The notes under the pieces: generated by a model
Database searches by the model: none
Seen by the model: only the letters and a program-made list of their open reading frames with translations
Told to the model about the DNA's origin: nothing
Translations under genes and position numbers: made by a program
Shown here: positions 25,004 to 29,117 of the stretch, one piece after another
Position numbering within the stretch: position 1 is the first letter of the stretch
Layout: each line of letters opens with the position of its first letter
Origin: Crocinitomicaceae bacterium
Lineage (GTDB): Bacteria > Bacteroidota > Bacteroidia > Flavobacteriales_D > Crocinitomicaceae
DNA length: 34,172 nt
Direction of reading: 5' to 3'
NCBI GenBank assembly: GCA_029247685.1
Contig: JAQWKT010000059.1
Coordinates: 1 to 34,172 of the forward strand

Positions 25004-25906
25004 ATGAGTAAATCCGCATTGTTAAAATCTTCTATTGCCAAAAAATATTGGATGGCCTTAACTGGTCTTTTCTTGTGCACCTTTTTAATAGGGCACCTTA
25101 TAGGGAATCTTCAATTAATTTTTATGGCGGGCGAAGAAGGAAGAAGAGCTTTTAATGTGTATGCATACTTTATGGCACACAATCCAGCAATTAAAATTTT
25201 ATCTTATCTAACTTATTTTTCCATTTTGTTTCACACCATAGATGGAATAATGCTTACTATTAAAAACAAAAAATCGAGACCAAAAGGCTACGCCTACAAC
25301 AATGCTGCTGCTAATAGCTCTTCCTCTTCAAGAAACATGGCACTTCTTGGCTCTTTGATTTTAGTTTTTATCGTTATGCATATGGCAAATTTTTGGTACA
25401 AAGCAAAAATTGATAACAGCGCTCCATTTCCACTACATGTTTATGAACTTGAACTTAAACAAGACGGTAAAAAGGTTCGAAATGACCAAACGATGTATTA
25501 TTTCACTCATCAACCAACGCTTCAACCAATACCTAAAAACAGAAAGCTTGTATATCGAGACACTACAAATAATATTACGGATCTATACATTAAAGGGACC
25601 AATATTAAAATTGCAGAAGGATACAAAGATTTACATTCTCTTGTATTTGCATTTTTTGGCCAAGACAAAAGCAAATACGGTTTTCCAAAAAATGAACAAG
25701 CCCTATATTTTACACTATTCTATATTATCTCCATGCTTGTTCTTTCTTTTCATCTTTGGCATGGATTCGCCTCAGCATTTCAATCTCTTGGAATAAATCA
25801 TTCCAGTTATAATAAACTTATAAAGTCTTCAGGTAAATTATTTGCCGTTCTTATTCCACTAGGATTTGCAATAATTCCTTTGATGATTTTTTTGAATCAA
25901 ATATAA
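25004..25906 (+). CDS. sdhC: Succinate dehydrogenase/fumarate reductase cytochrome b subunit with a hydrophilic insertion
   Basis: The 300-residue protein is the single membrane subunit of Bacteroidota SdhCAB, which anchors SdhA/SdhB to the inner membrane and passes electrons to or from menaquinone through b hemes. Five helices are visible: about 15-40 with His31, 63-85 with His77, 112-132 with His126, 234-258 with His250, and 272-298. These four histidines are the probable heme ligands. Relatives are, as I recall, about 210-230 residues. The excess is a 70-residue hydrophilic segment (about 134-206) between helices 3 and 4. It is adjacent to KDLHSLVFAFFG, where the family sequence resumes. 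Unlike the usual tight spacing, sdhA follows after a 228-base gap. Confidence 0.92.
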   Translation: MSKSALLKSSIAKKYWMALTGLFLCTFLIGHLIGNLQLIFMAGEEGRRAFNVYAYFMAHNPAIKILSYLTYFSILFHTIDGIMLTIKNKKSRPKGYAYNNAAANSSSSSRNMALLGSLILVFIVMHMANFWYKAKIDNSAPFPLHVYELELKQDGKKVRNDQTMYYFTHQPTLQPIPKNRKLVYRDTTNNITDLYIKGTNIKIAEGYKDLHSLVFAFFGQDKSKYGFPKNEQALYFTLFYIISMLVLSFHLWHGFASAFQSLGINHSSYNKLIKSSGKLFAVLIPLGFAIIPLMIFLNQI

Positions 25907-25916
25907 ATAGGAAACA

Positions 25917-25947
25917 AAATAGACAAAGATGGACATTTTGTCTATTT
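25917..25947. terminator. 11-bp hairpin between sdhC and sdhA, possible terminator or attenuator
   Basis: AAATAGACAAA (25917-25927) and TTTGTCTATTT (25937-25947) are exact reverse complements around a 9-base loop. It begins 11 bases after the sdhC stop. The downstream U tract is only TTT, so termination may be partial. It may instead protect the sdhC 3' end or act as a protein site. Confidence 0.45.
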
Positions 25948-26006
25948 AAAGTATTTAGAATAAATATAAATTAAATAATAAAAAAGCTGTAAAAACAAAA
26001 AGAAAT

Positions 26007-26014
26007 TATATTTG
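26007..26014 (+). promoter_or_regulatory. -7 promoter box TAtaTTTG for sdhA-sdhB
   Basis: An exact TAnnTTTG match lies 120 bases before the sdhA ATG, giving a long predicted leader. It separates transcription of sdhAB from sdhC. Confidence 0.5.
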
Positions 26015-26026
26015 TAAATAATCATA

Positions 26027-26062
26027 ATGGAAGTAAAGATGGTGTACACACAAAACCATTAA
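26027..26062 (+). other. Possible 11-codon leader peptide in the sdhA 5' region
   Basis: ATG at 26027, 12 bases after the promoter box, opens a frame MEVKMVYTQNH that ends in TAA at 26060-26062. It could be an upstream leader ORF that affects sdhA expression. It is too short to judge by coding signal, and chance is likely. Confidence 0.2.
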
Positions 26063-26091
26063 ACAATCCATTAAAATAATTGTTAAAATAT
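26056..26091 (+). repeat. Three 12-bp-spaced degenerate repeats in the sdhA leader
   Basis: CCATTAAACAAT (26056), CCATTAAAATAA (26068) and TTGTTAAAATAT (26080) follow each other with a 12-base period and share a TTAAA core. CCATTAAA is exact in the first two. They lie between the promoter box and the sdhA ATG, so they could be binding sites for the helix-turn-helix domain of SdhA itself, but AT-rich DNA makes such runs common. Confidence 0.35.
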
Positions 26092-26134
26092 TAATTTAAT
26101 TGCATTTACGCGTTTTTTTAAACACGATTAAAGA

Positions 26135-28348
26135 ATGGACAAAAAAGGACAGTTACTAAGTATTTCTCAAGTTGCTTTAATTCTAAATGTCTCTGAAAAA
26201 ACAGTGCGAAGGCACATTCAATCTGGAAAATTAATCTCAAAAAAAATTGGAGGGGTTCATCGGATAAACAAAAGTGATCTAGATCATTTTTTGAACCCAG
26301 AAAAATCGTTTAGCCTAAATGATTTAAAAGCAGAAATTGACAATTCTTTTCCAAGAGAAAATCAGGAACCAGATGGACCACTAGTAGATAAATGGTCAAC
26401 ACATAAAAGCAAAATAAAACTTGTTAACCCTGCAAATAAAAGATTAATTGATATCATTGTTGTTGGATCAGGTCTAGCAGGAGGAGCAGCATCTGCATCC
26501 CTTGCAGAACTCGGATACAATGTGAAAACATTTTGCTTTCAAGATTCCCCTAGAAGAGCGCACTCTATTGCTGCTCAAGGAGGCATTAATGCTGCAAAAA
26601 ATTATCAAGGAGATGGGGATTCCGTTTACAGACTTTTTTATGACACTATAAAAGGTGGCGATTATAGATCCAGAGAATCAAATGTGCATCGTTTAGCTGA
26701 GGTTAGTGCAAATATTATTGATCAATGCGTGGCTCAAGGTGTACCCTTTGCCCGAGAATATGGAGGTTTACTTGACAATAGATCCTTTGGGGGCGTTTTA
26801 GTTTCTAGAACTTTTTACGCAAAAGGGCAAACAGGACAACAATTACTTTTAGGAGCTTATTCGGCGATGTCCAGACAAATTGGAAAAGGAAAAATTAAAA
26901 TGTATTCTAGGCATGAAATGCTAGACCTAGTAATTGTGGATGGAAAAGCTAGAGGTATTATCGCTAGAAACTTAGTAACTGGCGAAATTCAAAAACATTC
27001 TGCACATGCAGTTGTTCTTGGAAGTGGTGGATATGGAAATGTCTTTTTTCTTTCCACAAATGCAATGGGATCAAATGTAACAGCAGCATGGAAAGCACAC
27101 TTAAAAGGAGCTTATATGGCAAATCCATGTTTTACACAAATTCATCCAACTTGTATTCCTGTTTCAGGAGACCATCAATCCAAATTGACCTTAATGTCTG
27201 AATCATTAAGAAATGATGGCAGAATATGGGTGCCTAAAAACATGGAGGATGTTTTAGCTATTAGAGAAGGAAAGCTTAAACCAACCGAAATTTCGGCTGA
27301 GAATAGAGACTATTATTTAGAAAGAAGATACCCCTCTTTTGGTAATCTAGTCCCTAGAGATGTTGCTTCAAGAGCTGCAAAAGAACGATGTGATGCGGGA
27401 TATGGAGTCAATAAAACAGGAGAGGCTGTTTATTTAGATTTTGCATCTGCAATTGAACGTTATGGAAACGAAAAAGCGCAAGTCTTAAACCTAGACAACT
27501 TATCTAAAGAAGAGATTTTATCTTTAGGACGAAAAGTTATTGAAAATAAATATGGAAACTTATTTCAAATGTACTACAAGATTGTTGATGACGACCCTTA
27601 TTTTACTCCAATGCAAATTTATCCAGCTGTACACTATACCATGGGTGGATTATGGGTTGACTACAATCTTATGAGCTCAATCCCTGGTTGTTACGTAGCA
27701 GGAGAAGCTAACTTTTCTGATCATGGAGCTAACAGACTTGGTGCATCCGCATTAATGCAGGGACTTGCAGATGGCTATTTTGTATTGCCATATACCATTG
27801 GAGATTATTTAGCTGACGACATACGAACAGGGCCTATATCCACAGAAACAAAAGAATTTGATGATGCTTTAGAAGATGTAAAAAGCAAAATTTCTAAACT
27901 AATGAAAATTCAAGGAGAAAGATCGGTGGATTATTTCCACAGAAAACTAGGAAAAGTAATGTGGAATAATGTTGGTATGGCAAGAAATGCAGAAGGTCTT
28001 AATACTGCTATTACCGAAATTCAAAAAATTAGAACTGAATTTTATAGCAATGTTCGTATACCAGGAGAAAGTAATGAACTAAATCCAGAATTAGAAAAAG
28101 CACTTCGAGTCGCAGATTTTCTTGAATTAGGAGAACTAATGGCTATAGACGCTCTCAATAGAAGTGAATCGTGTGGAGGGCATTTTAGAGAGGAATCCCA
28201 AACCGATGAAGGAGAAGCATTGAGAGATGATGAAAACTTCACCTATGTTGCTGCATGGGAATACTCTGGGAACCCATCTAAACCTAAACTAAATAAGGAA
28301 AACCTAGAATACAAAAACATCAAGCTTGTTCAAAGAAGCTATAAATAA
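26135..28348 (+). CDS. sdhA: Succinate dehydrogenase/fumarate reductase flavoprotein fused to an N-terminal excisionase-type HTH domain
   Basis: The 737-residue product has two parts in one open frame. Residues about 7-53 are a winged helix-turn-helix of the excisionase/MerR type (HTH_17-like): [20 protein letters not shown], then the wing KKIGGVHRI and SDLDHFL. A hydrophilic linker (54-78) follows. From about 79 ([10 protein letters not shown]) the sequence is a normal Bacteroidota SdhA: GSGLAGG (111-117) for [14 protein letters not shown] with His143 as the probable covalent FAD site, [31 protein letters not shown], and HYTMGGLW and [14 protein letters not shown] near the FAD/capping site. 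It oxidises succinate or reduces fumarate at the inner membrane with SdhB and SdhC. Relatives are about 640-670 residues. No ATG lies between the HTH and the FAD domain; the only alternative start is TTG at 26291 (Leu53). DNA binding is inferred, not shown. Confidence 0.92.
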
Positions 28349-28370: not shown

Positions 28371-29117
28371 ATGAATCTTACATTAAAAATATGGAGACAA
28401 AAAAACCCAAATGAGAAGGGTAAAATTGTCAGTTATCCAGTTAAGGATATCGATGGAGACATGTCTTTTTTAGAAATGATGGACGTTTTAAATGTAGAAT
28501 TGATTGAAAAAGGAGAAAACCCAGTTGCATTTGACCACGATTGTAGAGAGGGTATCTGTGGAATGTGCTCCATGTACATTAATGGTGAAGCACATGGACC
28601 AGACAGGGGAGTAACCACCTGTCAGTTACACATGCGAAAATTTAAGGATGGAGACACCATATACATTGAACCCTGGAGAGCCAAAGCATTTCCAATTATT
28701 AAAGATTTAATGGTGGATCGTTCTGCATTTGATAGAGTAATGAACGCGGGGGGCTTCGTATCGGTAAACACATCAGGAAATACGATTGATGCCAATGCGA
28801 CACCTATCCCAAAAGAAGATGCAGACAAAGCTTTTGAAGCCGCTACATGTATAGGTTGTGGAGCATGTGTTGCCAGTTGTAAAAATGCTTCTGCAATGTT
28901 ATTTGTATCGGCTAAAGTATCGCAACTAGCACTTCTTCCTCAAGGAAAAGTAGAAGCGAAAGAACGTGTAATTAAAATGGTAAACACGATGGATGAAGAA
29001 GGATTTGGGAATTGCACCAATACAGGAGCATGTGAGGTTGAATGTCCAAAAGGAATTTCTCTTGAAAATATTGCTAGGATGAATAGAGAATATCTAAAAG
29101 CAATGATTTTAAAATAA
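28371..29117 (+). CDS. sdhB: Succinate dehydrogenase/fumarate reductase iron-sulfur subunit
   Basis: The 248-residue protein carries electrons between SdhA flavin and SdhC quinone/heme. The 2Fe-2S ligands are Cys58, Cys63, Cys66 (CREGICGMC) and Cys84. The C-terminal half has [11 protein letters not shown] (Cys160, 163, 166, 170) and [15 protein letters not shown] (Cys215, 221, 225), matching the 4Fe-4S and 3Fe-4S clusters. All cluster ligands are present and the length is normal. It starts 22 bases after the sdhA stop, so it is co-transcribed. Nothing in SdhB is unusual, which makes the fusion in SdhA and the insertion in SdhC stand out more. Confidence 0.97.

Follow-up and report, generated by a model that had tools for sequence, protein, structure and literature searches.

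Why should the flavoprotein subunit of succinate dehydrogenase (SdhA), an enzyme of the TCA cycle, begin with a DNA-binding domain? This question is raised by one gene of the window, i.e., the whole stretch of 34,172 nucleotides that was analyzed. An earlier note, made from the sequence alone, had described this gene as an SdhA fused in one open frame to a helix-turn-helix (HTH) domain, and had proposed that the protein senses the flavin/quinone state and binds the leader of its own operon. The answer favored here, with a probability of roughly 0.6, is that a portable module for autoregulation, made up of a leader with a promoter/operator and of a DNA-binding head, was captured by SdhA and became joined to it, in frame, at its start codon. 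The region is organized as follows:

25004–25906 (+): sdhC, cytochrome b subunit; an open reading frame (ORF) with 75% identity to its counterpart, found at the same place in the closest relative.
25907–26134 (+): gained leader, 228 bp, 20% G+C, against 4 nt in the closest relative and a median of 11 nt at standard loci.
26135–26368 (+): N-terminal extension, SdhA residues 1–78, without counterpart in the closest relative.
26153–26296 (+): HTH_17 winged helix-turn-helix, residues 7–54 (PF12728, TIGR01764); its recognition helix and wing are common to two methyltransferase HTHs.
26291–26293 (+): TTG, the sole near-start codon from the end of the HTH up to the FAD domain, read from the sequence.
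26369–28348 (+): SdhA core with all FAD-site blocks, from profile matches.
28371–29117 (+): sdhB, iron-sulfur subunit, downstream; an ORF with 90% identity in the closest relative.

The fusion gene (26135–28348, forward strand) is a single uninterrupted frame of 737 codons, and the architecture of its product is HTH_17, a linker, and a complete SdhA. The N-terminal domain matches the Pfam family HTH_17 (PF12728) over residues 7–54, with 50.2 bits against a cut-off of 27 (53.6 bits when only the first 89 residues are searched), and it also passes the cut-off of the NCBIfam model TIGR01764, named ‘excise’ (residues 7–53, 34.9 bits, cut-off 28.8). The profile check of the N-terminus that the earlier note had called for was, thus, positive with both models. 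For the remainder of the protein, Pfam gives FAD_binding_2 (106–540) and Succ_DH_flav_C (602–736), and NF005749 matches full-length (75–737), with 1163.6 bits against a curated score of 866. The fusion in one open frame and the full SdhA with its FAD-site blocks were both correctly read from the sequence, and so were the start codons: no ATG lies between the HTH and the FAD domain, the TTG at 26291 is the only near-start codon there, and reading of the codons from after Leu53 (encoded by this TTG) to the FAD domain gave no in-frame ATG, GTG, or TTG. The core is an ordinary member of the Bacteroidota/Bacillus-type SdhAs (NF005749, TIGR01811), from which the window protein differs by its 78-residue head and its separate leader. 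The gene order sdhC-sdhA-sdhB is present, and the fusion gene is the sole SdhA match in its genome (2.2 Mb, 94% complete). A full-length structure prediction was of low quality (mean pLDDT 44.5).

The closest relative indicates where the additional sequence came in. In Crocinitomicaceae bacterium EAC53 (locus L043), and in L138 (G402:C26), which is probably the same genome, dnaN, rlmN, sdhC, sdhA, and sdhB follow one another as in the window, with identities of 88, 77, 75, 90, and 90%, respectively. Their sdhA is headless, beginning with MPILNSKIPEG only 4 nt behind sdhC. Given this shared gene order and ordinary start, the 228-bp leader and the 78-codon head must have been gained at the start of sdhA. 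The conserved, clade-specific HTH fusion that the earlier note had looked to for support did not emerge: the HTH version is found in the window only, and the 90%-identical relative is without it. As the HTH head is seen in a single genome among those surveyed, and as the TTG sits exactly behind it, the window alone could be explained by an assembly error, or by translation from TTG 26291 giving a near-ordinary SdhA. This explanation deserves very little credence. Both flanks match the gene order of the relative, the HTH is intact and in frame, and a start at TTG 26291 would leave about 26 non-native residues. Heads of other kinds are, moreover, found elsewhere in equal architecture, one of them (type C, below) in three species; it is the conserved neighborhood, together with these parallel cases in other genomes, that makes an assembly artefact unlikely.

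The window HTH can be compared with other HTHs of related bacteria. Among the matches listed for 399 genomes of the order, the best two non-self matches were G235:C25 (50.8 bits) and G358:C121 (42.1 bits), both of them C5-cytosine DNA methyltransferases matching HTH_17 and DNA_methylase. The window HTH is 56% identical to theirs, over 60 (G235) and 50 (G358) residues, and NVSxKxVRRxI (recognition helix) and KIGGV (wing) are common to all three. Across the class (395 genomes), other HTH matches had 31.6 bits at best. The earlier assignment to an excisionase/MerR-type HTH is, therefore, right as far as the excisionase-like profile goes, but the nearest relatives found are N-terminal HTHs of C5 methyltransferases. 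An excisionase/phage or a plasmid source was rejected as the best match, phages giving two weak matches, IMG/VR none, and plasmids a single match with E 1e-3; of the 55 plasmid records obtained at E 1, none reached 60% identity. A side finding was a 644-aa frame (L206:2342–4276) in which an N-terminal part of 230 residues is joined to HTH_17 and a C5 methyltransferase; it may be a fusion of a nuclease with a methyltransferase.

C5 methyltransferases with such a domain are known as regulators. According to a 2025 review, the N-terminal HTH of regulatory methyltransferases binds an operator and competes with RNA polymerase at the enzyme’s own promoter, resulting in auto-repression (PMC12707154). 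The regulatory C5 methyltransferases of the EcoRII, Ecl18kI, and SsoII types are likewise enzymes with an N-terminal HTH, which represses their own gene (same source), and the closest matches of the window HTH are the N-terminal HTHs of the G235 and G358 enzymes, which may regulate themselves in this way. In contrast, the catalytic part of the window protein is SdhA, and its operator is a candidate only.

The window gene has counterparts. In seven other Bacteroidota genomes, SdhA carries three further kinds of N-terminal head: type A, of ~90 residues (L040, L074); type B, of ~105 residues (L102, and G134 in two near-identical contigs); and type C, of ~150 residues (G018, G305, and G406, which belong to the same GTDB genus as the window). 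The records of L040, L074, and L102 are titled MAGs of uncultured Bacteroidetes, as opposed to the isolate names of L040 and L102, which resemble what we take to be single-cell plate names. By sequence, the type C head is clearly an integrase Arm-type domain: in G018, it matches PF17293 (Arm-DNA-bind_5) with 24.1 bits against a Pfam cut-off of 22.6, its comparison with 13 integrase Arm domains by hhalign being weak (E 7e-4, probability 27). The type B head is probably one as well, from its resemblance to the PF17293 profile by hhalign (E 2e-5, probability 76); with Pfam, L102 scores below the cut-off (16.8 bits, E 0.0099) and G134 has no match. The Bacteroidota tyrosine integrases carry the Arm domain of PF17293, whose binding sites are short repeats; in both head types, SdhA stands where these integrases have their recombinase catalytic domain. 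The type A head has no family or profile match by sequence, and its structure model (mean pLDDT 63.2), with three long strands and helices, has no significant match in the PDB. No viral source was found for the heads of types A, B, and C, nor any phage or plasmid source for type A. Apart from the fused genes, G018, G305, and G406 contain only weak SdhA matches (26–28% identity).

Other long frames were discarded as heads. Those of G266, G274, G115, and others are upstream read-through before ordinary starts (e.g., MTEMPKHS), and the 981-codon frames of G013 and G351 (L136, L137; G013:C34, G351:C61), considered as sdhA-sdhB fusions, consist of sdhA (670 aa) and sdhB as separate ORFs. Short extensions before the usual SdhA start were also seen in L113, L119, L126, and L127 (G075, G165, G215, G181).

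These counts depend on the breadth of the survey. N-termini were read at 110 loci, namely, the window, 29 loci from a genome search, and 80 of at least 567 relatives, three of these 80 relatives having heads. At the genus level, an SdhA match was obtained in 84 of 86 genomes and a head in four (the window, G018, G305, and G406), in a screen based on frame length and query start, with some N-termini read, and with ten further genomes represented by fragments only. In the 399 genomes of the order, best matches only were considered, most N-termini lying outside the screen. An Arm-domain search served as a control in the genus: it yielded 79 matches in 38 of 86 genomes, two of them in SdhA frames (G018, G406) and the rest judged by frame length (60–522 codons), the third type C head (G305) falling below the threshold. 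Thirty Arm loci were fetched, of which 16 have a recombinase box (according to our own pattern) in a frame of at least 400 aa, seven are frames of 402–437 aa without the pattern, one (L162) is a 125-aa frame, and six were left unassigned.

The leaders supply the strongest evidence. At 141 distinct loci, a standard sdhA starts a median of 11 nt behind sdhC (95th percentile 31), as against leaders of 58–157 nt for fused sdhA genes, and 228 nt in the window (G018 not included). Standard leaders of at least 50 nt were found at five of the 141 loci: L143 has a frameshifted sdhC, L145 is N-rich, L198 is a matter of start choice, L030 truly has 91 nt, and the fifth has 56 nt. Each of the types A, B, and C has its own short repeats in the leader, common to the members of that type; the statistics on these repeats were devised after the repeats had been seen.

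The clearest pattern is that of type C, whose leader contains ATGTCGTA-CACT-ATGTCGTA, with a period of 12, identical in G018, G305, and G406. The exact arrangement ATGTCGTA-4-ATGTCGTA is present in three of the 86 genomes of the genus, those with the type C head, once in each and in the sdhA leader. In G406, the 5′ part of the leader has diverged and the 3′ part down to the start is mostly kept, while G018 and G305 are alike throughout. Just downstream of the site is a sequence that fits the −7 element of Bacteroidota (consensus TAnnTTTG), so that a protein bound to the site could block RNA polymerase. When up to two mismatches are allowed, 55 of 86 genomes contain the type C site, which does not exceed the backwards control, and the near-matches in G305:C66, G018:C32, G305:C38, G009:C5, and G372:C1, considered as a regulon, are inside coding ORFs. 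Double sites with one mismatch and the CACT spacer were also observed at L242:3015–3034 (G026:C45) and L243:2823–2842 (G305:C12), seemingly at the same intergenic place; G026 has this near-site although its SdhA is of standard length.

For type B, all three exact matches of GTGTTACAA in the 8 kb of L102, and all three in the 12 kb of L141 (G134), are within the leader, and the word is absent from the 8 kb of L143, which belongs to G134’s genus and has no head. The shared-repeat score was equalled by two of 150,258 pairs of stretches of equal length, both of which are the leaders, and shuffling of shared words was significant for lengths 8–10, but not for 6 (P 0.22) or 7 (P 0.10). Since L102 and G134 are only distantly related, type B carries the greater weight. 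For type A, TGTACCT-5-TGTACCT is found in both leaders only, with one mismatch in L040, where the next match has three; its score was reached by 31 of 102,720 pairs, and the non-leader pairs among those listed are A/T-rich words. Comparisons across types gave values below 0.05 in four of 25 tests, on A/T-rich words. A shuffling test for any period on eight leaders was below 0.05 for L074 (0.037) and L102 (0.023) only, and the G134 leader has no period-12 signal (P 0.47).

Three elements can be pointed out in the window leader:

25917–25947: inverted repeat AAATAGACAAA-9-TTTGTCTATTT with 11-bp arms (longest-arm shuffling P 0.02), a possible sdhC terminator or operator.
26007–26014 (+): TATATTTG, which fits the −7 consensus given above.
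26056–26075 (+): candidate operator CCATTAAA-4-CCATTAAA, a direct repeat with a period of 12 bp, with no second exact copy elsewhere in the 34 kb window.

By shuffling, the CCATTAAA repeat has P 0.048 for period 12, 0.61 for any period, and 0.27 for any 8-mer repeat; it resembles the repeats of the other leaders but is weaker, and as an operator it is suggestive only. The comparison of the window leader with the upstream region of the G358 methyltransferase revealed nothing notable in common (P 0.72).

Head types A, B, and C, i.e., three of the four types, are under purifying selection. Their pN/pS is 0.39 (A), 0.41 (B), and 0.15–0.35 (C), compared with 0.02–0.19 for the SdhA core, at a pS of 0.51–0.82 in the heads and a synonymous divergence (dS) from 0.9 up to saturation. 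Within type C, residues 1–50 have a pN/pS of 0.05–0.12, and the linker (119–150) 0.22–0.71. The bootstrap intervals, computed on the domain parts with linkers excluded, stay below 0.5. A relic needing only an open frame would not give such values, which argues that the heads are selected as proteins.

These results bear on two ways of doing without an operator-binding SdhA. A mobile gene (integrase, methyltransferase) or element might have been inserted at the start of sdhA, with only its promoter, start codon, and N-terminal domain remaining; the head would have no regulatory job, and the repeats would be relics of old operator or arm sites. Those heads that could be assigned correspond to the N-terminal domains of enzymes of mobile type, the native ATG has been lost in seven of the eight fused genes (L040 keeps one, and GTG or TTG codons are nearby in G134 and G406), and SdhAs from different clades carry the type B head, a distribution expected from repeated insertion. 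Nevertheless, an inert head needs its frame only, which is at odds with the pN/pS range of 0.15–0.41, and more so with that of the first 50 residues of type C; the type C repeat has remained identical in G406 despite the diverged 5′ flank; and, by eye, no mobile-looking ORF stands beside the fused genes of L040, L102, L133, L134, L141, and L142. Insertion of this kind may be the origin of the heads, for which it accounts well, but it does not account for their selection or for the kept leader words, and as a full explanation it is unlikely. Selection alone does not prove DNA binding either, and the heads could act through contact with proteins, the membrane, or bulk DNA, in assembly or localization, without any operator; a role in protein contact or assembly had also been considered in the earlier note. 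SdhA is part of a membrane complex, where a flexible N-terminal domain could serve assembly. This is less probable still, as the head types differ and come with their own leader repeats, which would be needless for protein contact.

On the preferred reading, that of a captured autoregulatory module, the heads are probably autorepressors, and the nature of the domains, the selection on them, and the repeats together suggest contact between the head and the leader repeats. SdhA outside the membrane complex would bind the repeats of the sdhC-sdhA leader via its head and, once bound, would repress an internal sdhAB promoter. Assembly with SdhB and SdhC, or binding to the membrane, would take SdhA off the DNA and, as the DNA would be freed by assembly, the supply of subunits would follow demand. 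We infer repression as the effect and assembly as the switch. The binding of the window leader by the SdhA HTH, as put forward in the earlier note, gains from the analogy with the other heads, which are selected and located beside type-specific repeats, and is weakened by the window’s own repeat, with its any-period P of 0.61. As for the switch, the redox control that had been proposed, as in PutA, is possible but unsupported; membership in the complex, i.e., free versus built-in SdhA, is simpler than flavin/quinone sensing.

PutA was an apt parallel, being an autogenous repressor with a DNA/membrane switch (PMC5293562). The same source describes a DNA-binding head engineered onto a bifunctional PutA, with catalysis kept and DNA binding gained, which makes an N-terminal DNA-binding domain feasible on such a flavoenzyme (PMC5293562). 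The trifunctional PutA of proteobacteria is also a membrane-associated flavoenzyme with an N-terminal DNA-binding domain, and its autorepression and DNA/membrane switch are what is proposed here for SdhA. The two differ in that the PutA head is a ribbon-helix-helix (RHH), whereas the SdhA heads are HTH_17 and Arm-type domains, several of them gained separately; SdhA is the complex II flavoprotein, and the redox switch is a PutA feature. An operator near its own gene, as in PutA, may have a counterpart in the repeats of the type A, B, and C leaders and in the weak repeat of the window. The PRODH and P5CDH domains with an N-terminal RHH, which define PutA, are absent from the window protein, where Pfam gives FAD_binding_2, Succ_DH_flav_C, and HTH_17, and no DNA_methylase catalytic domain was found there by Pfam. 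Lacking these catalytic domains, the window protein belongs neither to PutA nor to the regulatory methyltransferases; by analogy, it may work like either.

A literature search, in which subscription journals were thinly covered, returned no report of an SdhA that is extended at its N-terminus, fused to an integrase, or equipped with an HTH or a DNA-binding domain. If the proposal is true, an enzyme of the TCA cycle and the respiratory chain doubles as a transcription factor for its own subunits, complex II gets a direct means of matching subunit supply to assembly, and a housekeeping gene has repeatedly taken over, at a single position, autoregulatory modules that come from mobile enzymes. Every head type is then predicted to recognize the repeat word of its own leader, but none of the words of the other types. 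For the broader picture, the odds are about even: the sdhA start codon in Flavobacteriales and close kin would be a recurrent landing place for operator and head modules from mobile enzymes (methyltransferase HTH, integrase Arm), through which complex II would gauge how much of it is still unassembled and repress its subunits accordingly, the type B module keeping its operator word on distant sdhA lineages.

The phylogeny of SdhA (FastTree, 122 rows) places type A in two lineages, with a support of 0.83–0.92. The type B cores of L102 and G134 are 80.5% identical to each other; one headless SdhA shares 96.5% identity with the core of L102, and a different one 89.4% with the core of G134. The type B head of L102 is, therefore, probably a recent gain and, the two cores being distant, the type B module either moves horizontally or has been acquired on two occasions from a single family of integrases. 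No target duplication was discernible in an empty-site comparison of L102 with L067 and L058, whose DNA is too diverged. The window SdhA itself shares 71–76% identity with the full-length SdhAs of most species in its genus, but up to 82% with SdhAs from elsewhere in the family; two sdhA lineages seem to exist within the genus, one of which has the motif VAPNNRPKID.
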